DNA from: Jiella endophytica | Lineage (GTDB): Bacteria > Pseudomonadota > Alphaproteobacteria > Rhizobiales > Rhizobiaceae | Direction of reading: 5' to 3' | DNA length: 64,000 nucleotides | NCBI RefSeq assembly: GCF_004519335.1 | Contig: NZ_SOZD01000005.1 | Location: 372,001-436,000, forward strand | In this document: piece by piece, positions 18,296 through 63,127 of the stretch | Position numbering within the stretch: position 1 is the stretch's first letter | How the letters are laid out: the number at the start of each line of letters is the position of its first letter | Position numbers and translations under genes: made by a program | The notes under the pieces: generated by a model | Told to the model about the DNA's origin: nothing | Database searches by the model: none | Seen by the model: only the letters and a program-made list of their open reading frames with translations

Positions 18296-20530
18296 ATGAC
18301 GACGCACCCGATTCAGTCCGAAACCGAAGTCCCGTTCCTGATGGAACGACGCCGGTTCCTGTTGTTCCCCGGCCTCTTCGCCGTTGCCGGGGCGCTGATC
18401 TCCGGCGCGATCTCCTTCGTCGTGCTGATGGGCCTGACGCCCATCGAGCCGACCGATACGATCGTCACCATCGCGACTGTGGTGAACGGCGGCTTCGTGC
18501 TCCTCCTCTGCGTGCTGATCGGCCGCGAGGTGATGCGCATGGTGCGCGCCCGGCGGCAGGGCAGGGCCGCCTCGCGGCTGCATGTGCGCATCGTCGTCCT
18601 GTTCTCGATCGTCGCGATCCTGCCGGCGCTCCTGGTGGCCATCGTCGCCAGCGTCACCCTGGATCTCGGCCTCGACCGCTGGTTCGGCATGCGTACCCGG
18701 GCGATCGTCGAATCCTCGATCAACGTCGCCCAGGCCTATGTGAATGAGAACGCCCGCAACCTGCAGGGCACGACGCTGTCGATGGCCTACGACCTCGACC
18801 AACAGCGCCAGCTCTTCGATCTCGATCGCGGCGGCTTTCAGGACCTGATGACCGAGCAGGCGCGGGGCCGCTCCCTGCTCGGTGCGCAGATCCTGCGCCT
18901 CGACGGCACGCCGATCCTCAAGGCCGACGTCGACGAGGAGAAGCCGCTGCCTGTGCCGCCGAACGACGCGCTGCAGCAGGCGGCGGCCGGCAATCTGGTC
19001 TTCATTCCGCCGGGCATCACCAATCTCGTCGGCGCGATCATCCGTCTCAGGCAGATTTCCAACGCCTATCTCTATACCGTGCGCGCCGTCGACCCCCAGG
19101 TGATCACGGCGCTGCGGCAGATGGAGGAGCGCTCGGCGGAATATTCGAGCCTTTCGGAGAACCGCTTCGGGCTGCAGGTCGCCTTCGCGCTGCTCTATCT
19201 CGGCATCACGCTGATCGTGCTTCTGTCGGCGATCTGGACCGGCATCGGCGTCGCCGACCGGCTGGTGCGGCCGATCCGCCTTCTGATCGGTGCCGCCGAC
19301 GAGGTGTCGGAGGGCAATCTCTCCGTGACGGTGCCGGTGAGGGTCTCCGACGGCGACGTCGGATCGCTCTCCAACACCTTCAACAACATGATCCTGCAGC
19401 TGCGGAGCCAGCGCTCCGAACTGGTCAACGCCAAGGACGTCATCGACGAGCGCCGCCGCTTCATCGAGGCGGTGCTCTCCGGCGTCACCGTCGGCGTCAT
19501 CGGCATCGAGCGCGACGGCACCATCTCGATGCTGAACCCTTCGGCCGAGCGGATCCTCGACGTCGATGCCGAAGCGGTGACGGGCCGGAAGGTCGACGGA
19601 GTGTTCCCCGAGATCGGGCGTATCCGGCAGGCCGCGGCGGCCTCCTGGCGGCCGGAATATCAGGAAGAGGCCAAGCTGAAGATCCGCGAGCGCGAGCGCA
19701 CCCTGGCGATCCGGATCACTTCCTTCGAGGAGAGCGAGGGCGAACATTCCCTCGTCGTCACCATCGACGACATCACCGATCTCGTCGATGCCCAGCGCAC
19801 CTCGGCCTGGGCCGACGTCGCGCGGCGCATCGCCCACGAGATCAAGAACCCGCTGACGCCGATCCAGCTTTCCGCCGAGCGCATCCGCCGGCGCTACGGC
19901 AAGCGGATCGAGGACGACCGCGAGGTCTTCGACCGCTGCATCGAAACGATCGTGCGACAAGTCTCCGACATCGGCCGGATGGTCGACGAGTTCTCCACCT
20001 TCGCCCGCATGCCGAAGCCGACGATGGAGCGCATCGACCTGCGCGACGCGCTGCGCGAGGCGGTGTTCATGCGCGAGATGGGCGATCACGGCATTGCGTT
20101 CTCCGCCGAGATTCCCGACACGCCGATGTACGGATCCTATGATACCCGGCTGCTTTCCCAGGCCTTCGGCAATCTGGTGAAGAACGCGGTGGAATCCCTC
20201 GAGGCGACCGAGGGCATCGAAGGCCGGATCAAGGTCCGGGCGCGGGCCGATGGCGACGTCTACCGCATCGATATCGTCGACAACGGCCGCGGTTTTCCGA
20301 AAGACAATCGCGATCGGCTGCTCGAGCCCTACATGACGACGCGCGAGAAGGGCACGGGCCTCGGCCTCGCCATCGTCCGCAAGATCATCGAAGACCATGG
20401 TGGCGTGATTTCGCTGGAGGATGCTCCCGATCAGCCCCAGGGCGCGATGGTGCGGATCGTTCTGCCCGCAGGCAGTGGGCCGGACGGCGCGAGCGCACCG
20501 AAAGATCGAGACCAACACAAGGAGTGGTGA
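18296..20530 (+). CDS. ntrY: Membrane sensor histidine kinase NtrY
   Basis: 744 residues. Hydrophobic segments near residues 22-45, 55-75, 95-118 and 295-318 flank a large periplasmic part. A HAMP linker (RPIRLLIGAADEVSEGNLS), a PAS domain (GVTVGVIGIERDGTISMLNPSAERIL) and a kinase core follow: H-box RRIAHEIKNPLTPIQLSAER, N-box VKNAVESL, G-boxes DNGRGFPK and GTGLGLAIV. NtrY pairs with NtrX and responds to nitrogen or redox/microaerobic cues in different alphaproteobacteria; which applies here cannot be read from sequence. ntrX starts 3 bp after the stop. Confidence 0.95.
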   Translation: MTTHPIQSETEVPFLMERRRFLLFPGLFAVAGALISGAISFVVLMGLTPIEPTDTIVTIATVVNGGFVLLLCVLIGREVMRMVRARRQGRAASRLHVRIVVLFSIVAILPALLVAIVASVTLDLGLDRWFGMRTRAIVESSINVAQAYVNENARNLQGTTLSMAYDLDQQRQLFDLDRGGFQDLMTEQARGRSLLGAQILRLDGTPILKADVDEEKPLPVPPNDALQQAAAGNLVFIPPGITNLVGAIIRLRQISNAYLYTVRAVDPQVITALRQMEERSAEYSSLSENRFGLQVAFALLYLGITLIVLLSAIWTGIGVADRLVRPIRLLIGAADEVSEGNLSVTVPVRVSDGDVGSLSNTFNNMILQLRSQRSELVNAKDVIDERRRFIEAVLSGVTVGVIGIERDGTISMLNPSAERILDVDAEAVTGRKVDGVFPEIGRIRQAAAASWRPEYQEEAKLKIRERERTLAIRITSFEESEGEHSLVVTIDDITDLVDAQRTSAWADVARRIAHEIKNPLTPIQLSAERIRRRYGKRIEDDREVFDRCIETIVRQVSDIGRMVDEFSTFARMPKPTMERIDLRDALREAVFMREMGDHGIAFSAEIPDTPMYGSYDTRLLSQAFGNLVKNAVESLEATEGIEGRIKVRARADGDVYRIDIVDNGRGFPKDNRDRLLEPYMTTREKGTGLGLAIVRKIIEDHGGVISLEDAPDQPQGAMVRIVLPAGSGPDGASAPKDRDQHKEW

Positions 20531-55968: not shown

Positions 55969-57111
55969 TTATTTGTTGGCGGCTTGCGCGGCCTGCGTGG
56001 TGGATTGCGTGGGAGTCCCGGTCGCCGGGGTGCTCGCGGCTTCCATAGCGTGGCGCAGGTCACTCTGCGTGACGTGGGCGTATTTCGTCGTCGTCGCTAT
56101 GTCGGAGTGGCCGAGCAGGATCTGGGCGAGCTTGATGTTGCCGGAGGCGCGGACGAGCCGTGAGGCGGCGGTGTGGCGGGTGTCGTGGAAGCGGAAGTTG
56201 GTGACGCCGGTCTTGTCGATCGCGCGGCGCCAGGCTGTCTTGAAGCCCTCAGCCGTCAACGGATAGCGGTGGCCGCGAATTCGGGCGCCGCCGGTCTGGC
56301 TCGCTTTCTTTGCCCGGCGCGCCTCATAGGTGAAAACGGCCTCCGGATGATGGTCCTTCAGCGTCCAGAGCAGATCGAAGACGGCGGCCGTCATCGGGAT
56401 CGCCCGAATGCGGTCTCCCTTCCCGGTGACGGTGAGGGTGCGGTTGAAGAAGTCTACGCGGGACCAGCTGAGGCCGATAATCTCGGCGCGGCGGCAGCCT
56501 GTGAGAATGGCGAAGACGACGGCCGGGAGATAGTCCTCGCGCAAGGCAGCGGAGATCTCGCTCTCTTCCTCGCGTGTCGCCTCGCGTACCCTCTCACGCG
56601 GCTCCTTCAGCTTGTGGCGGCGCCAGTCGATCGTTTTGACGCATTGCCCCCAGACGGCGCTTGCGCGGCGCAGGATCGCATCGAGCGGCTGAGTGACCGT
56701 ACGATTGACGGTGGCGGGGCTGATCAGCACGTCGGTCAATTCGCCGTCGCGGCGGCGTGCCACGGTCTCGCCGCGGCGCCGGGCAACGAGACGGGCGACG
56801 AGGGCATCGTCGATGTCTGCGATCGGCGTCCTGGCGCCGACATTGGTCTGCAGCCAGGCGAGGGTTCGCTCGGTATCATCGGAATTTCTGTGATGCTGGC
56901 CGACTTCCGTCCAATAGAGCGTCGCAGCCTCTCCAAAGGAGAGGGGACGGGCAGTGTTAATCGTCGACTCCCTCAGCTTCGCCTTGAGTTGGCGGAGGTA
57001 TTCTTCCGCGTCGCGACGACGCGTGCATCCCGTCTGGCCTGAAAATCGATGACCGCGATGGTGGAAGTCGTAGGAATAGGTGTCGGAACCGCGACGCTTG
57101 TAGACCGACAT
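55969..57111 (-). CDS. Tyrosine-type site-specific integrase
   Basis: 380 residues. The N-terminal SVYKRRGSDTYSYDFHHRGHRF is an arm-binding-type domain opening, followed by a core-binding SAM-like domain (FGEAATLYWTEVG...). The catalytic domain has all residues: Arg207 in LTGCRRAEI, Lys231 in GKGDRIRAIPM, His309 and Arg312 in HDTRHTAASR, His335 in LGHSDI and the nucleophile Tyr344 in TTKYAHV. A Thr/Gln/Ala-rich C-terminal tail ends the protein. It faces the tRNA-Pro junction with its 3' end 37 bp away. The first 139 bp overlap the upstream helix-turn-helix gene. Confidence 0.93.
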   Translation of the reverse strand: MSVYKRRGSDTYSYDFHHRGHRFSGQTGCTRRRDAEEYLRQLKAKLRESTINTARPLSFGEAATLYWTEVGQHHRNSDDTERTLAWLQTNVGARTPIADIDDALVARLVARRRGETVARRRDGELTDVLISPATVNRTVTQPLDAILRRASAVWGQCVKTIDWRRHKLKEPRERVREATREEESEISAALREDYLPAVVFAILTGCRRAEIIGLSWSRVDFFNRTLTVTGKGDRIRAIPMTAAVFDLLWTLKDHHPEAVFTYEARRAKKASQTGGARIRGHRYPLTAEGFKTAWRRAIDKTGVTNFRFHDTRHTAASRLVRASGNIKLAQILLGHSDIATTTKYAHVTQSDLRHAMEAASTPATGTPTQSTTQAAQAANK

Positions 57112-57299
57112 TTCCGCGCCTCCTTATAGGCCTCGACGTCGGCCGGATCGTAACGCCGGTGCTCGCGCTTCCGGCCGCGGCCGACATTGACGTAGGGTAT
57201 CAAGCCGTCATTGGTCAGCTCGCGCAAGTGGTCCTCGCAGATCGCCAGGCGCCGCGCCGCTTCCGACGGCTTGAGAAGATCGCAGTGCGCGTCAGCCAT
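56973..57299 (-). CDS. Excisionase-type helix-turn-helix protein
   Basis: 108 residues. Residues 8-65 are a winged-helix DNA-binding domain of the AlpA/excisionase kind: LLKPSEAARRLAICEDHLRELTNDGLIPYVNVGRGRKREHRRYDPADVEAYKEAR. The C-terminal 45 residues lie in the 139-bp overlap with int in another frame and are low-complexity Thr/Arg/Ser, so they may be dispensable. Its ATG overlaps the upstream gene by 8 bp. Placement just before int makes a recombination directionality factor most likely. Confidence 0.75.
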   Translation of the reverse strand: MADAHCDLLKPSEAARRLAICEDHLRELTNDGLIPYVNVGRGRKREHRRYDPADVEAYKEARKCRSTSVAVPTPIPTTSTIAVIDFQARRDARVVATRKNTSANSRRS

Positions 57300-57489
57300 G
57301 GCGCTTCATCGTTGTCTCGACGCTTCCATTCGTGGCGAGGGTCAGGAAGGCGAAGCCAAGCAGCGACCACCATCCCCAGTCAGCGAACGCGAGGCCAAGG
57401 ACAGTCCCTGCGGCGGCGAAGATGGCGGCGATGTTCTGGAGCTTCTGCCAGCGCCAGCAGCTCGCCAGCATGGCGTGGTGATCAGCCAT
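57292..57489 (-). CDS. Small membrane protein of the element
   Basis: 65 residues with two adjacent hydrophobic segments (LQNIAAIFAAAGTVLGLAFA and WWSLLGFAFLTLATN) flanked by His- and Lys/Arg-rich ends. No family recognised. It overlaps both neighbouring genes by 8 bp, so it is part of the early operon. Confidence 0.55.
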   Translation of the reverse strand: MADHHAMLASCWRWQKLQNIAAIFAAAGTVLGLAFADWGWWSLLGFAFLTLATNGSVETTMKRHG

Positions 57490-57679
57490 GGTGCGAGACC
57501 TCCGTCAGCGAGTGGTCGGGCCCGGTCAGCCGGGAGCCGCCGGAGGCCTGACAGACGGATGGCGCGTAGCCGGCAGTCGTAAGGGCCTCGTCGACGATGC
57601 GGGCGATGTCGTCGACCACCGTCTGGTCGTCGCGGTCATCCTCGACCACGATGGCGGCAGCGATCTGAAACAGCTTCAC
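57482..57679 (-). CDS. Hypothetical protein of the element
   Basis: 65 residues, soluble. An acidic helix-rich N-terminal part ([23 protein letters not shown]) precedes a Ser/Gly/His-rich tail. No family recognised. Overlaps the GapR-like gene by 4 bp (ATGA) and the next gene by 8 bp; only this coupling supports it. Confidence 0.5.
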
Positions 57680-58134
57680 CGGACGCTCCTTTCGCGCGCC
57701 GTCGCCTCGCCGACGGCCTTGCGGAACGTCGCCAGATCGACCGGCGGCGTCGTCACCTTTTCGCCATCGGCGCTAGTGAATGAGACCGACACGGTCGCCT
57801 CGTCTTCACGGCGGCGCCGTCCGGCTCCTGGCTTCGGTTCGCGACCCTTGCGCTGGATCGGCAACTCGTCGTCGCCGAAGGGAAGGTCGGGGTTCATGCC
57901 GAGGGCGGACAGGTAGAGGTCGAGAATCGCCTCCTGCTCCTGGCGCTCGTCGGCGTCCTGCTTGCGCAGCGAGATCACGCGGCGCAGGATCTTGGTGTCG
58001 AAGCCGTTGCCCTTGGCCTCGGCGTAGACGTCCTTGATGTCGTCGCCGATGGTCTTCTTCTCTTCCTCGAGCCGTTCGATCCGCTCGACGAAAGAGCGCA
58101 GCTGATCCTGCGCAACACCGTTCACATCACTCAT
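57676..58134 (-). CDS. GapR-family (DUF2312) protein with C-terminal extension
   Basis: 152 residues from the ATG at 58134. Residues 1-80 match GapR, the alphaproteobacterial DNA-clamping protein that recognises overtwisted [73 protein letters not shown]. The chromosomal protein is about 90 residues; here 70 more follow, including a basic [16 protein letters not shown] and a short [13 protein letters not shown] unit. It may shape element DNA or compete with host GapR. Coupled on both sides by ATGA overlaps. Confidence 0.85.
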
Positions 58135-58817
58135 GCGGCGTCTCCTTCTGTGAGCCGGTTCGCTCGCGCTGCGGCGTCTGGGCAAAGGCGGGCAAGGGCG
58201 GTGGCGAAGCGCTCAGAGGCAATGCCGGGCCCGCGCCACGGGCGGATCATGCCGTCGCGCAGCGGTAGCGGCTTGACGTCCCTTGGGAGGTCCGGCCAGG
58301 CGGGTGAGAGCGAGTGGAGGTCGCGCTTCTCGGTGGCGAGCGCGCGCATGTCATAGAGCTTGACGAGAGCCCGCCCGCGATCGTCGATCGGCGGCAGCTG
58401 CGCCGCACGGTGGATCTCGGCGTCCAGCCGGTCCTCGATGCAGAGGCGAAGGGCTCGCCATCTTGCGATCTGCGCCTCGACGATGACGTCGGGCGTGCCG
58501 TTGGCCTCGGCCCGGCGGATCATCTCCGCCTCGACGGCCCGCCGCGCCGGCGTCGGGGTGTCGCCGAGATAGGCCTCATGCGCATCATGGAGCAGGCAAT
58601 AGGCGGCGAGCGTCGGGTCGCCGGTCTCGCTCTCGGCAGCCTCGGCCATCAGCACCGAGTGCTGTGCGACGGAATAGGGGGTGGCGGTCTGCCCGGCAAA
58701 GCGGGCGAGATGCGACAGGCCGTGCGCGATCTCGGATAGGAGATGCGCCGGCTCGATGCGCGGTGCCATCAGGTCGACGAGACGGCCGATGGCCGTGGGT
58801 GCAAAGGGGCCTGTCAC
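58131..58817 (-). CDS. HD-domain phosphohydrolase (YfbR-like)
   Basis: 228 residues from a GTG with GGAGGAG four bases upstream, a better start than the upstream ATGs, which are in shadow sequence. HD-superfamily metal ligands are visible: [13 protein letters not shown] (His53) and the HD pair His77-Asp78 in [20 protein letters not shown]. The pattern resembles YfbR-type 5'-deoxyribonucleotidases and related phage-borne phosphohydrolases. In phages such enzymes adjust nucleotide pools or counter nucleotide-signal defences; which applies here is unknown. Confidence 0.8.
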
Positions 58818-59038
58818 GAAGCTCCTCCGTCGCCTGCGGAAGGCGCGTCGTTCATTGCCTCGGCGAGTTCGGCGGCGATCGCCCGACGATCGCCCTCGAG
58901 GATGTTGAGAGCCCGTGCGATCTGCGGTGCCCAGTCGGCGCGCGCCGTCAGGCAGACGGTCTCGGTGACGCGGCCGTTCTCGATCAGGGCGACGCCGGGC
59001 GTCGCGTGGGGTGGGTGTGCTTCGAATCGGCGGGTCAC
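58814..59038 (-). CDS. Hypothetical protein of the element
   Basis: 74 residues from a GTG that overlaps the upstream stop (GTGA); the stop overlaps the GTG of the HD gene in the same way. The protein is a strand-rich N-terminus (GVALIENGRVTETVCLTARADW) and a helical region (APQIARALNILEGDRRAIAAELAEAMND). No family recognised. Confidence 0.6.
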   Translation of the reverse strand: MTRRFEAHPPHATPGVALIENGRVTETVCLTARADWAPQIARALNILEGDRRAIAAELAEAMNDAPSAGDGGAS

Positions 59039-59316
59039 TGCAGCGGACCTTTCTGCGAAGCCTCGCCGCCCTCGGCGATGGCGCCGGCGATCGCCTTGCG
59101 AAGGATGGCAAGCTCGGCGGCTGGCATGCCGGCCTCGGCAAGTCGGAAGAGCACGAGTTCGGTGATCGTGGCGCATCCAGCGACCATGATCGCCGCCCGC
59201 TCGCCCGCCGTTTCGCCGGCTTTCGCGCCGGCCAGGACGCTTTCTGCCGCGATGCTCAGGGCGCCCGAAGAGGTCTCGAGGAAACGATCGGCGAGGTCTT
59301 CCCGCGAAAGCGTCAT
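59035..59316 (-). CDS. Hypothetical protein of the element
   Basis: 93 residues, almost all helical and Ala-rich, without a membrane segment. It opens with LSREDLADRFLETSSGALSIAAE and ends AEGGEASQKGPLQ. No family recognised. ATGA-type overlaps on both sides support it as part of the early operon. Confidence 0.6.
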   Translation of the reverse strand: MTLSREDLADRFLETSSGALSIAAESVLAGAKAGETAGERAAIMVAGCATITELVLFRLAEAGMPAAELAILRKAIAGAIAEGGEASQKGPLQ

Positions 59317-59498
59317 GATGCGCCTCCAGCCCTGTCGCGCTTGACCTTGGAAATGACGGAGCCCTTGGGAGCAGCCTTCGCGGCGACCTTGCGGGCGGCC
59401 CCCGCCGTGGCGGCGGTGACGGTCTCGACGAGGCCGCCGATGAAATGGACGCGGAAGGTGCCGCCCTTGGTGCTGCGCCGGCTAGAACGGGCGGTCAT
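59313..59498 (-). CDS. Small basic hypothetical protein of the element
   Basis: 61 residues, strongly basic (about a quarter Lys/Arg) and Ala-rich, starting TARSSRRSTKGGTFRVHFIGG. It could bind nucleic acid. Overlaps its upstream neighbour by 17 bp and the downstream gene by 4 bp. No family recognised. Confidence 0.55.
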   Translation of the reverse strand: MTARSSRRSTKGGTFRVHFIGGLVETVTAATAGAARKVAAKAAPKGSVISKVKRDRAGGAS

Positions 59499-59814
59499 CG
59501 TCGACCTCCTCGTCCTCGCTGGTGATGGCCGGGCGATAGTCGACAGGCCGGACCGGTCGCGGATCAGCGCCGTAGCGCTCGCGGGCCGACCGTCGGGCGA
59601 TTTCCTCGGTGGTCGGGCGCAGGCTGTAGACCGCGCCACCGCCGTAATATTCGGTGACGTATTCCTCGCCGGCTTCGCCGACAGGAATGTCGACGCGCAG
59701 CATCTTTGATGCTGCTATCTCGACTTCCTTGACGAAGCCCGGGCGGACGCGATGGCCCATCAACTCGAGAATGGCCCAGCCCTCGAAGGCCGATGCGGTC
59801 GTTTCGGTGGTCAT
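59482..59814 (-). CDS. Conserved phage-type hypothetical protein
   Basis: 110 residues from the ATG at 59814. The sequence FEGWAILELMGHRVRPGFVKEVEIAASKMLRVDIPV, then VTEYYGGGAVYSLRPTTEEIAR, is a pattern I have met in early regions of alphaproteobacterial prophages, without a known function. The C-terminus is acidic (SEDEEVDDDRPF). Confidence 0.65.
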   Translation of the reverse strand: MTTETTASAFEGWAILELMGHRVRPGFVKEVEIAASKMLRVDIPVGEAGEEYVTEYYGGGAVYSLRPTTEEIARRSARERYGADPRPVRPVDYRPAITSEDEEVDDDRPF

Positions 59815-59960
59815 GACGCGGTCCCCCGATAGGCGACGAAGGCCTCCTGGCTGGCGCGGTCGATGGCGCCGGCCCGATCGGCGCCGGCCATGCAGCCGAC
59901 GGCGAAGAGGCAGGCGGCGGCAAGCAGCGCCGCAGCCTCGGTAAGCTGCCGGGTGCTCAT
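59811..59960 (-). CDS. Very small membrane or exported protein of the element
   Basis: 49 residues, below usual gene-calling limits. The ATG at 59960 overlaps the stop of the next gene upstream and its TGA overlaps the ATG at 59814, so it exactly fills a gap in an otherwise continuous overlapping operon. The N-terminus is hydrophobic (LTEAAALLAAACLFAVGCMAG), a membrane helix or signal peptide; AVGC is close to, but not, a perfect lipobox. Confidence 0.6.
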   Translation of the reverse strand: MSTRQLTEAAALLAAACLFAVGCMAGADRAGAIDRASQEAFVAYRGTAS

Positions 59961-60268
59961 GCGACCCGCCGTTCCGACACGCCATAGGCGAGCTGCCGGG
60001 CGATGCGGCCGTCGCGGGTGAGATCGTCGGGCGTGAAGCCGGCCTCGATCAGATCGGCGTCGGTGCAGGCGCCGGTCAGCGCTGCAATGTCGATCATCCT
60101 CGCGGCCATGCGCTCGGCGGATTCGGAGACGTCTGGAAAGGCTTTGTCTGCCCCGGCCTTAAGCTTCGCGGCGAGGCCGCTCGCTGGCGGGGACCCCGCA
60201 TCTGTCGGCAGATTGGAGCGGCGGGCGCGGGCGATCTCGGCCGGTGTGAGAGTACGAAACGCGATCAT
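59957..60268 (-). CDS. Hypothetical protein of the element
   Basis: 103 residues; the ATG at 60268 has GGAGG-CTGAGG upstream. Helical, with an opening FRTLTPAEIARARRSNLP and a closing CTDADLIEAGFTPDDLTRDGRIARQLAYG. The latter looks like a small helix-turn-helix-like motif but I cannot assign a family. Confidence 0.6.
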   Translation of the reverse strand: MIAFRTLTPAEIARARRSNLPTDAGSPPASGLAAKLKAGADKAFPDVSESAERMAARMIDIAALTGACTDADLIEAGFTPDDLTRDGRIARQLAYGVSERRVA

Positions 60269-60272
60269 CGCC

Positions 60273-60593
60273 TCAGCCTCCGATCACGGGAAGGCTGAGG
60301 ATGCCGGCGGCAAAGCCGAAGCCGATCAGCACCGCAGCGACGAGCGAGGCAGCGAAGAAGACCGCCATGAGAAATGCGTCGAGACGCCTGCGGGCCTCGC
60401 CGGCAGCAATCAGCTCGGTGCGGAGTGCCGCGTCGCCCTCGTCGAAGAAGCCGAAATGACGGCGGCTCACGGCCTGGGGATCGAAGTAGACGCCGCCCGA
60501 CGCCGCGCGGGGAGGACGCCCGGCGTCGGACGGCGCAGGCGCCGCCGTCTGGGAGGAGGAGGCGACGGCGGGTCTGAAGAGGGTAGTTCGCAC
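60273..60593 (-). CDS. First gene of the early operon; membrane-anchored hypothetical protein
   Basis: 106 residues from a GTG with TAGGAG seven bases upstream. A Ser/Ala/Pro-rich N-terminus is followed by a single C-terminal membrane helix (AVFFAASLVAAVLIGFGFAAG), with the soluble part probably cytoplasmic. Four bases separate it from the next gene. No family recognised. A repressor-type operator lies in its promoter. Confidence 0.6.
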   Translation of the reverse strand: MRTTLFRPAVASSSQTAAPAPSDAGRPPRAASGGVYFDPQAVSRRHFGFFDEGDAALRTELIAAGEARRRLDAFLMAVFFAASLVAAVLIGFGFAAGILSLPVIGG

Positions 60594-60626: not shown

Positions 60627-60655
60627 AAGCTAATGCGGTCTTTTGTCCGCGTCAA
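60627..60655 (-). promoter_or_regulatory. Promoter of the early operon with operator O1 in its spacer
   Basis: On the minus strand TTGACG (60655-60650) and TAGCTT (60632-60627) are spaced 17 bases; the spacer is almost exactly operator O1 (ATGCGGTC-TTTT-GTCCGC, 60633-60650). Transcription would begin about 60620, with the GTG of the first gene at 60593. A bound repressor would physically block polymerase. Confidence 0.6.
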
Positions 60656-60661
60656 GCTGAA

Positions 60662-60679
60662 ATGCGGTCAAACGTCCGC
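60662..60679. promoter_or_regulatory. Operator O2 of the element
   Basis: ATGCGGTC-AAAC-GTCCGC: same arms as O1 (29 bp away) and O3. Arms are near-palindromic (ATGCGGTC against ATGCGGAC). It lies between the early operon and the divergent WYL gene. I do not see a convincing promoter for WYL around it. Confidence 0.65.
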
Positions 60680-60735
60680 TTGTCGTCTCCGTTGCTTCGC
60701 GCGAGCCTTGCGAGTGCAGATTGTGGAGGCGGCGC

Positions 60736-61356
60736 ATGGATGTGGCGAAGCGGCTTGAGGATGCAATGGGGACGGGGGAGCTCGTCTCCATCCGGTATCA
60801 TGGCGGTAGTCAGCCGGGCGCGATCCGGGACATTGCTCCGCTGGCCATTGAGGGGACGAAGCTCCGGGCCCGATGTTACGCGTCCCACACCGTCAAGACG
60901 TTTTCGCTCGACAAGATCGAGCCGCTGCCGACACCGGCCCGCACGGCCGATCCCGCGCGCTGGCAGGCGGGATGGTTTCCAGACGTCGAGGGCGAGCCGG
61001 ATGCGGTTGAGGACATTTGCCCGGGTTCTCGCGAGCGATGGGCCGCACTCGGCTGGTCGGTGCGCGAGACGGCTGACGGATCGGGTTTCGCACTCCGCCT
61101 TCATCGCCCGAAAAAGCGAGGATCCGGCTTTCTCGCCGCGCCGTGCGTCGAATTGTGTTTCACGCCGATGCGCCGGCGCGTTGTCATGACCGGGGATGTC
61201 ACCGCGTCCGGGGCCGCCGTCCTCGTCGAGGTCGAGGATGGAGAAAGCGCGCGGCCGTGGCGGCTAAGGACGCGCAGCGACACGCGGACATGGAAGCATT
61301 ACGATAAGGCTGCGGCGGCTTTTCGAGAGGCGGCCGATCGCGGACCTGGCGCCTGA
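60736..61356 (+). CDS. Stand-alone WYL-domain protein
   Basis: 206 residues from the ATG at 60736 (GGAGG seven bases upstream). The first 50 residues after the start resemble a WYL beta-fold: ELVSIRYHGGSQPGAIRDIAPLAIEGTKLRARCYASHTVKTFSLDKIEPL. No helix-turn-helix is visible. The rest (PDVEGEPDAVEDICPGSRERWAALGWSVRETADG and on) resembles a second, diverged unit of unknown type. WYL domains sense nucleic acids or ligands and often regulate defence and phage systems. It is transcribed away from the early operon, with operators between. Confidence 0.7.
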   Translation: MDVAKRLEDAMGTGELVSIRYHGGSQPGAIRDIAPLAIEGTKLRARCYASHTVKTFSLDKIEPLPTPARTADPARWQAGWFPDVEGEPDAVEDICPGSRERWAALGWSVRETADGSGFALRLHRPKKRGSGFLAAPCVELCFTPMRRRVVMTGDVTASGAAVLVEVEDGESARPWRLRTRSDTRTWKHYDKAAAAFREAADRGPGA

Positions 61357-62169
61357 TCAGACGCCGAACAGCTCGTTCAGCGTCAGAACGCGATGCACCG
61401 CTTTGAGGTGGCGCGCGGAAAACTCGACCGTTGCGTCGGGGTTGAGCTTGCGGATGAACAGCTTGTCAGAGGTCGCGTGGTCATAGATGCCGACGAACGC
61501 CTCTACGCCACTGTGCTCGGCATATTGCGCCTGGACGACGACGGTGTCGCCCTGGCGGGGCGGCTTGTAGGGATGAACGAATCGGAGGTCGCCGGGCATG
61601 TGCGCCGGCACCATGGAGTTGCCGGCGACGTAGAAGGCGTAGGCCTCCGGCACCTGCATCAGGGCCGGCGGCCGCCGAACAAACTCGACGACGCGGCTCT
61701 CCATCTCGAAAGCGCCCTCGTGACGGACGGCAAGGGACGCAGCGGCAGTGCCATAGACCGGCATGTTCGGCGGCATGGCCTCTCGCATCTGGTCGAGATT
61801 AACCGAAGCGATCGGCAAAACCTCTGAGAGCGGGCGTCCGGCTTCAGCCTGTGATCCCCTATCTTCCGACTTCTCAGATGCTTGAACACCAGGCGTCTTC
61901 TCGCCGCGACCCCATCGCAGCCATTCGAACGTCGTCTCCAGTCCGTTCGCAAGTTTCTGCAAGTTGTCTGTGTGCGGTACTTGGCCGGGTCGGCGCAGCG
62001 TGTTGCGCACAAAGTCCCGCGAGAGTCCGCTCCGAATTGCGGCGGCGTTGGCGCTCAGGCCAAGGTCGGCCAAGCGCTCGCTGATCCGCGCATGCAGCGC
62101 CTCGGCGGTGTGATTGTTTGTCGCATCAGCCATGTCGCGGACAATAATCCGCGCGAGCGCCGAAGTCAT
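61357..62169 (-). CDS. Phage repressor: HTH plus S24 (LexA-like) peptidase domain
   Basis: 270 residues from the ATG at 62169 (an ATG at 62133 is an alternative). The N-terminal HTH (LSANAAAIRSGLSRDFVRNTLRR, about residues 38-60) precedes a linker and an S24 domain. The catalytic Ser185 is in FYVAGNSMVPAHMPGD. At the usual Ala-Gly cleavage site, PVYGTAAAS (137-145) lacks the Gly. Near the catalytic Lys, FIRKL places Arg240 then Lys241. It probably binds the ATGCGGTC-type operators and maintains lysogeny. Confidence 0.85.
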   Translation of the reverse strand: MTSALARIIVRDMADATNNHTAEALHARISERLADLGLSANAAAIRSGLSRDFVRNTLRRPGQVPHTDNLQKLANGLETTFEWLRWGRGEKTPGVQASEKSEDRGSQAEAGRPLSEVLPIASVNLDQMREAMPPNMPVYGTAAASLAVRHEGAFEMESRVVEFVRRPPALMQVPEAYAFYVAGNSMVPAHMPGDLRFVHPYKPPRQGDTVVVQAQYAEHSGVEAFVGIYDHATSDKLFIRKLNPDATVEFSARHLKAVHRVLTLNELFGV

Positions 62170-62184
62170 GCGGACGATCGCCCG

Positions 62185-62213
62185 TTGACTATGCGGTCAA
62201 ATGTCCGCATATT
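62185..62213 (+). promoter_or_regulatory. Promoter of the Cro-position gene with operator O3 in its spacer
   Basis: TTGACT (62185-62190) and CATATT (62208-62213) are exactly 17 bases apart, and the spacer plus one base is operator O3 (ATGCGGTC-AAAT-GTCCGC, 62191-62208; symmetry extends two more bases to AT). Transcription would start about 62220, which is the ATG of the next gene. A lone half-site ATGCGGAC lies at 62168-62175, over the repressor start codon. Confidence 0.65.
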
Positions 62214-62219
62214 GCCCGC

Positions 62220-62636
62220 ATGATGACCCTCCGCGAACAACTCATTCATGTGGCTGACCGCTACTGCCAGGCTGTTGGCCTGTCGCGAGCCCGCGTCTCG
62301 ACCATTGTCCTTGGCCGAGGTTCGAAGCTCGACGACCTCGCGCGGGGCGGAGATGTGACCACTCGCATTTTCGAGCAGGCGGTCAGCTGGTTCTCCGCCA
62401 ATTGGCCCGACGGCACCGACTGGCCGAATGGCATCGCACGACCTGCGCCGCAGCCTCAGGCCAGCGCGGGTGTCGTTGGCAGGGATGAGGCGGGCGCGGG
62501 TTCTCTGCCAGCGAAGAGCGACGCGAGTGAGCTTAAGGGCGGGGCAGACAACGATCATGGCGGCGAAAATGCGGCAGATCGGCTGACGGCGCATCGGCAA
62601 TGTGCCGGCGGTTTTGCCGACGAGGCGACACGATGA
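62220..62636 (+). CDS. Cro-position DNA-binding protein of the element
   Basis: 138 residues from ATGATG; the first ATG lies at the predicted transcription start, so the message may be leaderless. The N-terminal 60 residues (LREQLIHVADRYCQAVGLSRARVSTIVLGRGSKLDDLARGGDVTTRIFEQAVSWFSANWPDG) look like a small helix-turn-helix protein. The C-terminal half is low-complexity. Its place opposite the repressor, sharing O3, is that of cro. Confidence 0.65.
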   Translation: MMTLREQLIHVADRYCQAVGLSRARVSTIVLGRGSKLDDLARGGDVTTRIFEQAVSWFSANWPDGTDWPNGIARPAPQPQASAGVVGRDEAGAGSLPAKSDASELKGGADNDHGGENAADRLTAHRQCAGGFADEATR

Positions 62637-63127
62637 GGCCGCAGAAGCCTCGTCGTGGTGCGCATGCGGCGCTCGCCGCAGCTGTCGCGGAGATCGGCGA
62701 AAGCGCGCGGGGCGAGCCGCAGCTCGGCATGGCGGAGGTTGCCGCCTTCCTGTCCGTCTCCGAGGGCACGCTCTACAAGGCGCTCGATCCCGACCAGGCA
62801 GGTGAATTCTCCTATGTGCGCGCGCGGCAGATCACCGAGCGCTACGGCTGCACGGCTCTTGCCGAAGACATGGCCATGGCCGCGGGCGGCATCTTCGTCC
62901 GGCTGACCGGCGAGAAGGTCGGGAGTGCCCGCTACATGAAGACGATCGCCGAGATCGGCGAAAGCATCCACGCCGTCGTCCGGAACATCGCCACCGCCGC
63001 CGAAGACGGGCGCATCGAAGCGGTTGAGGTGAGGGCGCTGCGCATGCGGGAAAGCATCGCGGCGGCGCTCGTCGTCCTCGTCACCCACGACCTGCACCTC
63101 AAGCAGATCCTGGAGGCGGGCGAATGA
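62633..63127 (+). CDS. CII-like regulatory protein
   Basis: 164 residues. Its ATG overlaps the previous stop (ATGA) after a GAGGCG site. The pattern AHAALAAAVAEIGESARGEPQLGMAEVAAFLSVSEGTLYKALDPDQAGEFSYVRARQITERYG, then AEDMAMAAGGIFVRLTG, resembles the phage CII/regulatory protein family with a poor helix-turn-helix; a long C-terminal helix region follows. The role is inferred from position and this resemblance. Confidence 0.65.
   Translation: MRPQKPRRGAHAALAAAVAEIGESARGEPQLGMAEVAAFLSVSEGTLYKALDPDQAGEFSYVRARQITERYGCTALAEDMAMAAGGIFVRLTGEKVGSARYMKTIAEIGESIHAVVRNIATAAEDGRIEAVEVRALRMRESIAAALVVLVTHDLHLKQILEAGE

Follow-up and report, generated by a model that had tools for sequence, protein, structure and literature searches.

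Which operators govern the lysogeny switch of the prophage element carried by Jiella endophytica, and how are they arranged? The 64,000-nucleotide stretch analysed here (NCBI RefSeq assembly GCF_004519335.1, contig NZ_SOZD01000005.1, positions 372,001 to 436,000; hereafter the window) carries a phage repressor gene flanked by two control regions. One contains the promoter of the repressor (PRM) and the divergent promoter PR of a gene in the position of lambda cro (the Cro-position gene); the other contains PL, the promoter of a leftward early operon. A first-pass annotation had proposed that three copies of one motif in these regions are the operators of the switch, and that their layout differs from that of phage lambda. 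Based on the sequence comparisons described below, we propose that five operators make up a lambda-type genetic switch here, three of them in the right region (OR1, OR2, OR3) and two in the left region (OL1, OL2; Table 1). We rate this reading, including its proposed mechanism, at a probability of roughly 85%. The element has already been entered in a virus catalogue, as the repressor in the IMG/VR record IMGVR_UViG_2837678835_000003 (48,052 bp; L039/L104) matches that of the window at each of the 270 residues.

The motif ATGCGGTC-N4-GTCCGC matches exactly only at 60633, 60662 and 62191 of the window, just as the first-pass annotation had it, and always on the + strand. Only these exact sites stand out, because 26 matches with up to three mismatches to the 18-bp motif are found, compared to 20.3 expected from shuffles. 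The scan of element and chromosome which had been recommended as a check was carried out on the assembly G000 (5,251,375 bases, 28 contigs, completeness 97.15). Hereby, the strict 17-bp core TGCGGTCN4GTCCGC is restricted to the same three sites and thus to the two control regions; a composition-only estimate gives about 0.8 expected occurrences per genome, while all three observed ones lie inside 1.6 kb. The relaxed form TGCGGNCN4GNCCGC is at background level in the 5.25-Mb assembly, where it matches 25 times and its reversed control 20 times. One palindrome, at G000:C11:678952, overlaps with open frames at least 80 amino acids long. Each exact site is an imperfect 20-bp inverted repeat of the type ATGCGGwCnnnnGwCCGCAT, with perfect symmetry of the outer 6 bp at 62191, and the coordinates agree with the earlier placement of the 60633 and 62191 sites in the 17-bp spacers of PL and PR, respectively. 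Very probably, the three exact sites are operators of the adjacent repressor, a protein with a helix-turn-helix (HTH) and an S24 domain. Their earlier assignment to the divergent repressor/Cro-position region and to the leftward early promoter is upheld, with relatives keeping both site groups.

We infer binding by this repressor from the co-location of sites and gene, from the matching operator sequences (words) which flank each repressor gene among the relatives, and from the tendency of these words to sort with the type of recognition helix. As motifs of this size can be shared, the palindromes could instead belong to a host regulator, e.g. a LexA-like or nutritional one. The strict motif is, however, absent elsewhere in the assembly, and the word varies between phages, recurs on both flanks of the repressor gene and tends to follow the recognition helix, which makes a host regulator a very remote prospect compared to the phage repressor.

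When the 64 kb are scanned with a position weight matrix (PWM) derived from the three exact sites, 62135-62154 comes sixth and 62168-62187 seventh. Both sites are located between OR1 and the repressor gene, and OR1, OR2 and OR3 appear to form an array of three sites in the right region, with two degenerate members. While the three exact sites of the earlier operator list stand, the list was incomplete, as these two weaker sites had been missed. Because the PWM scores of OR2 and OR3 are modest, both were put to the test on related loci.

Relatives were drawn from a family-level genome search (297 genomes), phage records, genome contigs (40 loci) and viral contigs (80 of 105 loci kept); a viral-contig scan with a single sequence kept the window's own element alone. 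A first reading of 16 control regions revealed the same plan with other operator words. For scoring, 122 loci (L040, L041 and L064-L183) were reduced to 96 distinct control regions, then to 88 by leaving out 8 without alignment in the HTH region, and to 76 by leaving out 12 in which no OR1 could be called; L104, one of these 76, is the element of the window itself. Since the words differ, the three-site PWM recovers only part of the relatives' operators, and locus-specific models were therefore used. For each locus, its OR1 served to build a matrix, with which the same locus was then scanned at a cut of p < 0.01, i.e. the top 1%.

A palindromic OR1 adjoins the -35 box of PR in 76 of the 88 control regions, own element included, with the adjacency being given by construction, because an abutting GTCAA was a search criterion for OR1. 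The offsets of the two weaker sites, in turn, stand out: of the 76 loci, 58 have a match with p < 0.01 at 55-59 bp (OR3) and 49 have one at 21-25 bp (OR2), compared to 0, 0, 3, 1, 1, 2 and 1 loci at seven control offsets. On the left side, a downstream pair was searched for more than 200 bp past OR1 with its spacing left free from 14 to 60 bp. The best pair is spaced 28-30 bp in 60 of the 76 loci, lies beyond the repressor stop codon in 56 of these 60, and in all 60 TTGAC starts 2-5 bases before the distal pair site, so that this site, OL1, starts at the -35 box and fills the PL spacer. For the window's own locus the rank p value of OR2 is 0.0013, that of OR3 is 0.012 and the pair spacing is 29. 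With the own element left out, the counts are 58/75 (OR3), 48/75 (OR2) and 59/75 (pair). Taking one locus per repressor cluster yields 31/39, 29/39 and 31/39 at 60% identity, and 18/23, 16/23 and 16/23 at 50% identity. Five loci from Rhodospirillales and unclassified alphaproteobacteria (L085, L087, L089, L091, L102) carry a ATACGGGCAA-type palindrome abutting GTCAA and show no match with p < 0.01 at the OR2 and OR3 offsets; their layout differs, as the repressor start seems to be further off.

The position of the start codons bears on the same question. After exclusion of L084, L123 and L179, 73 loci entered the start-codon counts, and the repressor start could be placed in 71. In 67 of these 71 loci, its distance to the first OR1 base is 75-79 bp. 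The gap between the PRM -10 box and the repressor start, searched for between 3 and 11 nt with ties broken towards 7, amounts to 6-7 nt in 61 of the 71, while the PR -10 box precedes the Cro-position start by 5-8 nt in 51 of 68 loci. In the window, the repressor -10 box TATTGT ends 7 nt before Met13 of the 270-residue frame, and the PR -10 box is separated by 6 nt from the ATG at 62220 and by 9 nt from the next ATG, the latter (9-nt gap) being the one used for the window in the family count. The first-pass annotation had placed the repressor at 61357-62169. The gene is borne out, whereas its start is probably Met13 (62133), because OR3 directly precedes this codon and relatives have their start at a matching distance; the repressors of Aurantimonas phage AmM-1 and Rhizobium phage RR1-A are annotated with the start corresponding to Met13. 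We thus no longer regard 62169 as first choice, with OR3 and the relatives favouring 62133 and leaving 62169 as the possible, less favoured start. Owing to the short gaps, the predicted +1 positions fall on the start codons or at most about 3 bases from them, and both divergent mRNAs look leaderless or nearly so. As the mRNAs probably start at or near the start codons, about 86 bp are enough for both promoters and three operators. Leaderless transcripts would not be unprecedented here, since the repressor and cro transcripts of phage PY54 are both reported to be leaderless (PMC4488713).

Several observations weigh against a five-operator switch. Regarding the promoters, the PL -10 box fits the consensus at 3 of 6 positions, and the PRM -35 and -10 boxes at 4 of 6 each; a sigma-70 scan of the window lists PR alone and not PL. 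In addition to the constructed adjacency mentioned above, the OR1 calls of L084, L123 and L179 look wrong, yet these loci were kept among the 76. The full set of five sites (OR2 and OR3 at p < 0.05 plus the pair) is present in 51 of the 76 loci, 25 of the 39 clusters at 60% and 11 of the 23 clusters at 50% identity. Moreover, OR2 and OR3 score 11.1-11.2 bits compared to 27.8-32.3 bits for the exact sites and are outscored by two sites outside the switch, at 20015 (13.5 bits) and 61007 (12.0 bits), which rank fourth and fifth; with its own-locus p value, OR3 rises only modestly above background. One could thus argue that only the three exact sites are operators, with one at PR and two at PL, and that 62168 and 62135 are chance matches. 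This reading is improbable in view of the own-OR1 matches that recur at both offsets among the relatives against 0-3 at the controls, and of the repressor start, which falls right past OR3 at the conserved distance from OR1. The scores at 20015-20034, about 40 kb away and left of the integrase, and at 61007-61026, within the PHROG 8498 gene (Table 1), are probably due to chance.

In the five-operator, lambda-type switch which we favour, repressor dimers bound to OR1, the predicted strongest operator, and to OR2, possibly in a cooperative manner, would shut PR and with it the Cro-position and CII-like genes, while dimers on OL1 and OL2 would shut PL and the leftward operon with xis and int. With its centre some 44.5 bp ahead of the repressor start, OR2 is close to the position from which lambda CI activates PRM. 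Repressor at OR2 may therefore also stimulate its own promoter. OR3, which covers the predicted PRM -10 box, would cap repressor synthesis at high repressor concentration.

Table 1. Predicted control elements and genes of the switch region and the adjoining early operons (window coordinates).
Feature	Position	Strand	Description	Basis
PR	62185..62213	+	TTGACT-17-CATATT, promoter of the Cro-position gene	sigma-70 scan and coordinates
PRM (candidate)	62141..62169	-	ATGACT-17-TATTGT, 7 nt before Met13	inferred
PL	60627..60655	-	TTGACG-17-TAGCTT, weak -10, promoter of the leftward early operon	coordinates
OR1 (strongest operator, predicted)	62191..62210	+	ATGCGGTCAAATGTCCGCAT; fills the 17-bp PR spacer and 3 bp of the -10	
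OR2 (degenerate operator, predicted)	62168..62187	+	ATGCGGACGATCGCCCGTTG; overlaps the PR -35; 23 bp from OR1	
OR3 (degenerate operator, predicted)	62135..62154	+	TCGCGGACAATAATCCGCGC; directly upstream of the Met13 codon; covers the predicted PRM -10; 56 bp from OR1	
OL1 (predicted operator)	60633..60652	-	fills the 17-bp PL spacer and the last 3 bp of the -35	
OL2 (predicted operator)	60662..60681	-	29 bp upstream of OL1	
Repressor gene	61357..62133	-	HTH and S24 peptidase-like; 258 amino acids from Met13 (270 if opened at 62169)	
Cro-position gene	62220..62636	+	PHROG 7669 (no function assigned)	helical N-terminal domain, weak lambda-repressor-like HTH resemblance
CII-like regulator	62624..63127	+	Phage_CP76, PHROG 101; next gene of the PR operon	
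Leftward early operon	55969..60593	-	under PL (operon structure inferred)	
Excisionase-like gene	57030-57299	-	HTH_17; near the end of the leftward operon	
Integrase	55969-57111	-	end of the leftward operon	
Deoxyribonucleoside 5'-monophosphate phosphatase-like gene	58131-58805	-	PHROG 318; in the leftward operon	
PHROG 8498 gene	60736-61356	+	no function assigned; between OL and repressor, pointing to the repressor	WYL match below the Pfam cut-off

How does this arrangement compare with known switches? At the sequence level, the region combines an HTH and S24 (LexA/CI-type) repressor divergent from an early operon with several similar palindromic operators at PR and PRM and further ones at PL, as expected for a lambda-type switch. 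The earlier claim that the operator layout is unlike that of lambda (NC_001416) does not hold up, and we reject it, as lambda OR1 and OL1 are likewise found in promoter spacers and the window has a three-site OR of its own. Both systems share the three-site OR, a separate OL and an OR2 which overlaps the PR -35 box. In lambda, 13 of the 17 bp of OR1 and of OL1 fall within the spacer of the respective promoter (PR or PL), and the other 4 bp reach into its -10 box; in the window, the spacer takes up 17 bp of OR1 and the -10 box the remaining 3 bp. Measured from the A of the repressor ATG, the centres of OR3, OR2 and OR1 lie at 11.5, 44.5 and 67.5 bp in the window compared to 19, 42 and 66 bp in lambda; OR1 and OR2 are thus nearly at their lambda positions, whereas OR3 has moved onto the -10 box. 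Further differences are the OR2-OR3 spacing (33 bp vs 23 bp in lambda), the 20-bp operators of another sequence, and the OL region, where a pair of sites spaced 29 bp stands in place of the three in lambda. A third OL site of the lambda type was not found, with two sites seen in the window and the family search looking for a pair. The lambda repressor mRNA is described as leaderless and starting at the AUG (PMC4488713). Unlike in lambda, the Cro-position gene is not recognisably Cro and is probably leaderless, too. In conclusion, judged from its sequence, the switch is of the lambda type with a conserved geometry of its own.

Rhizobium phage 16-3 (NC_011103), for which the annotated record was used as source of the operator facts, also has its repressor gene between OR and OL, an annotated OL2 wholly within the PL spacer, a PL facing xis and int, and an annotated Pc -10 box that ends 6 nt before the C start. 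It differs in having two annotated sites each in OR and OL, 12-14 bp long and with spacings of 26 and 17 bp, whereas the window has 20-bp sites, three of them in OR. The alignment of the 16-3 C protein with the window repressor is confined to the C-terminal half (37% over residues 136-262 in the 270-residue open reading frame), and in the 16-3 C family comparison the alignment of the relative L078 begins at its residue 85. The nearest named phage repressors are those of AmM-1 (CI, AB967974; 45%) and RR1-A (NC_021560; 37%). Both phages show the divergent layout, OR1- and OR3-like sites and a TATAAT within OR3 directly before the start codon; operators are not annotated in the stretches fetched for either phage. 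In RR1-A, OR2 and an OL pair spaced 30 bp are present as well, with the different half-site ATGCGTAT, while AmM-1 deviates, with an OR2 p value of 0.034 and a best pair 35 bp apart. The telomere phage PY54 resembles the window in the leaderless transcripts of its cI/cro region, a likeness at the level of transcripts, and differs in that its Cro binds a single site, according to the title of the paper (PMC4488713).

Regarding the repressor itself, Pfam detects the S24 peptidase-like domain, with an HTH match below the cut-off; repressor PHROGs are matched, and profile matches include 434, SinR and LexA chains. The AlphaFold model comprises HTH and S24-like domains with a mean predicted local distance difference test score of 85.7 and is confident outside the linker. 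Its best fold match in the PDB is a lambda-186 hybrid repressor (E 2.8e-5), with a low TM-score of 0.29 over two domains. Ser173 and Lys229, which we take to be the catalytic dyad by analogy with LexA and CI, are present in the window repressor; residues 131-132 (from Met13) are Ala-Ala where, by the same presumed analogy, an Ala-Gly for self-cleavage is expected, with Ala132 at the P1' Gly position. Among the 51 repressors of alignment A4, the residue aligned with Ala132 is Gly in 46, and the putative catalytic Lys229 is replaced by Gln in 13. Some repressors of the set may escape cleavage by the SOS response. In 8 of the 96 loci (L090, L092, L101, L153, L166, L168, L176, L177) the repressor can be aligned with that of the window only beyond the DNA-binding domain, suggesting domain swapping.

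The Cro-position gene is present in 75 of the 96 loci, own element included. Lambda Cro prefers OR3 and starts the lytic path, and the protein encoded in Cro's place could do likewise on sites shared with the repressor. Its model contains a confident N-terminal part with four helices which resembles XRE/lambda-repressor-like domains (best Z 5.5; lambda cI N-terminal domain Z 5.2), weakly so, as Z values near 5 are common among unrelated helical folds. Against such a role stand the best Foldseek match (weakly HTH-like, E 0.59), the lack of an assigned function for PHROG 7669 and a PDB sequence search in which the family matched no solved structure at E up to 1. We therefore regard a shared-site Cro as possible, at somewhat less than an even chance. 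Since the four-helix part gives only weak HTH-like matches, naming the modelled protein Cro would be premature. As for the other genes, RR1-A has an annotated deoxyribonucleoside 5'-monophosphate phosphatase gene downstream of its repressor, as counterpart of the phosphatase-like gene in the leftward operon. In 26 of the 60 loci with a 28-30 bp pair, OL lies at most 150 bp from the repressor stop codon, so that a gene of the PHROG 8498 type has no space there. No tRNA was found in the window.

If the frame is conserved, to what extent do words and repressors vary? Alignments comprised 69 repressors for the covariation scan, and 48 Cro-position proteins in A3. The 69 aligned repressors are accompanied by 34 different half-sites of 8 bases, a number that falls to 24 for the 6-base cores without the two outer bases. 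The words tend to sort with the recognition-helix type, e.g. KETLRK with GCGTAT, RSYFRKLF with GCGGTC and KTYLRK with GGGGAC. An aromatic residue at position 41 is associated with C at position 8 (counts 7, 4, 1 and 27; Fisher p = 1.5e-4 with one row per 60% cluster), an association picked after inspecting the data. The mutual-information scan is noisier: its strongest coupling involves K229, outside the HTH, and just 9 of the top 40 couplings fall in residues 38-48, so that part of the covariation signal reflects shared ancestry.

We lean slightly towards the broader view that the switch represents a large class of prophage switches, mostly from alphaproteobacteria and apparently undescribed so far, in which word and recognition helix would have diverged together into many immunity specificities within a rigid five-operator frame. 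This frame is defined by OR1-OR2 and OR1-OR3 distances of about 23 bp and 56 bp, an OL pair about 29 bp apart, OR3 on the PRM -10 box and two leaderless mRNAs. Among the papers listed by a literature search, with most subscription journals outside its scope, none describes such a frame in its title or abstract opening. According to the report on the temperate Brucella phage BiPBO1, its operators 'could not be predicted by in silico methods' (PMC4729917), and lambda- or 16-3-type operator sequences are reported to be absent in phiLM21-like prophages (PMC12429752). BiPBO1 is not among the matches listed, and the set underlying our rule covers neither BiPBO1 nor the phiLM21-like prophages. For the class compared here, operators can be predicted from sequence by this rule of a palindrome directly next to TTGAC, partner sites at distances of about 23 and 56 bp and, further on, a pair 28-30 bp apart. 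Dozens of related viruses share the same five-site plan with binding words that differ, and the plan offers a lambda-like switch with OR3 on the -10 box of the repressor promoter. The many naturally paired recognition helices and operators provide material on the evolution of immunity specificity and, if the broader view is true, would represent a natural, readable repressor-operator code.

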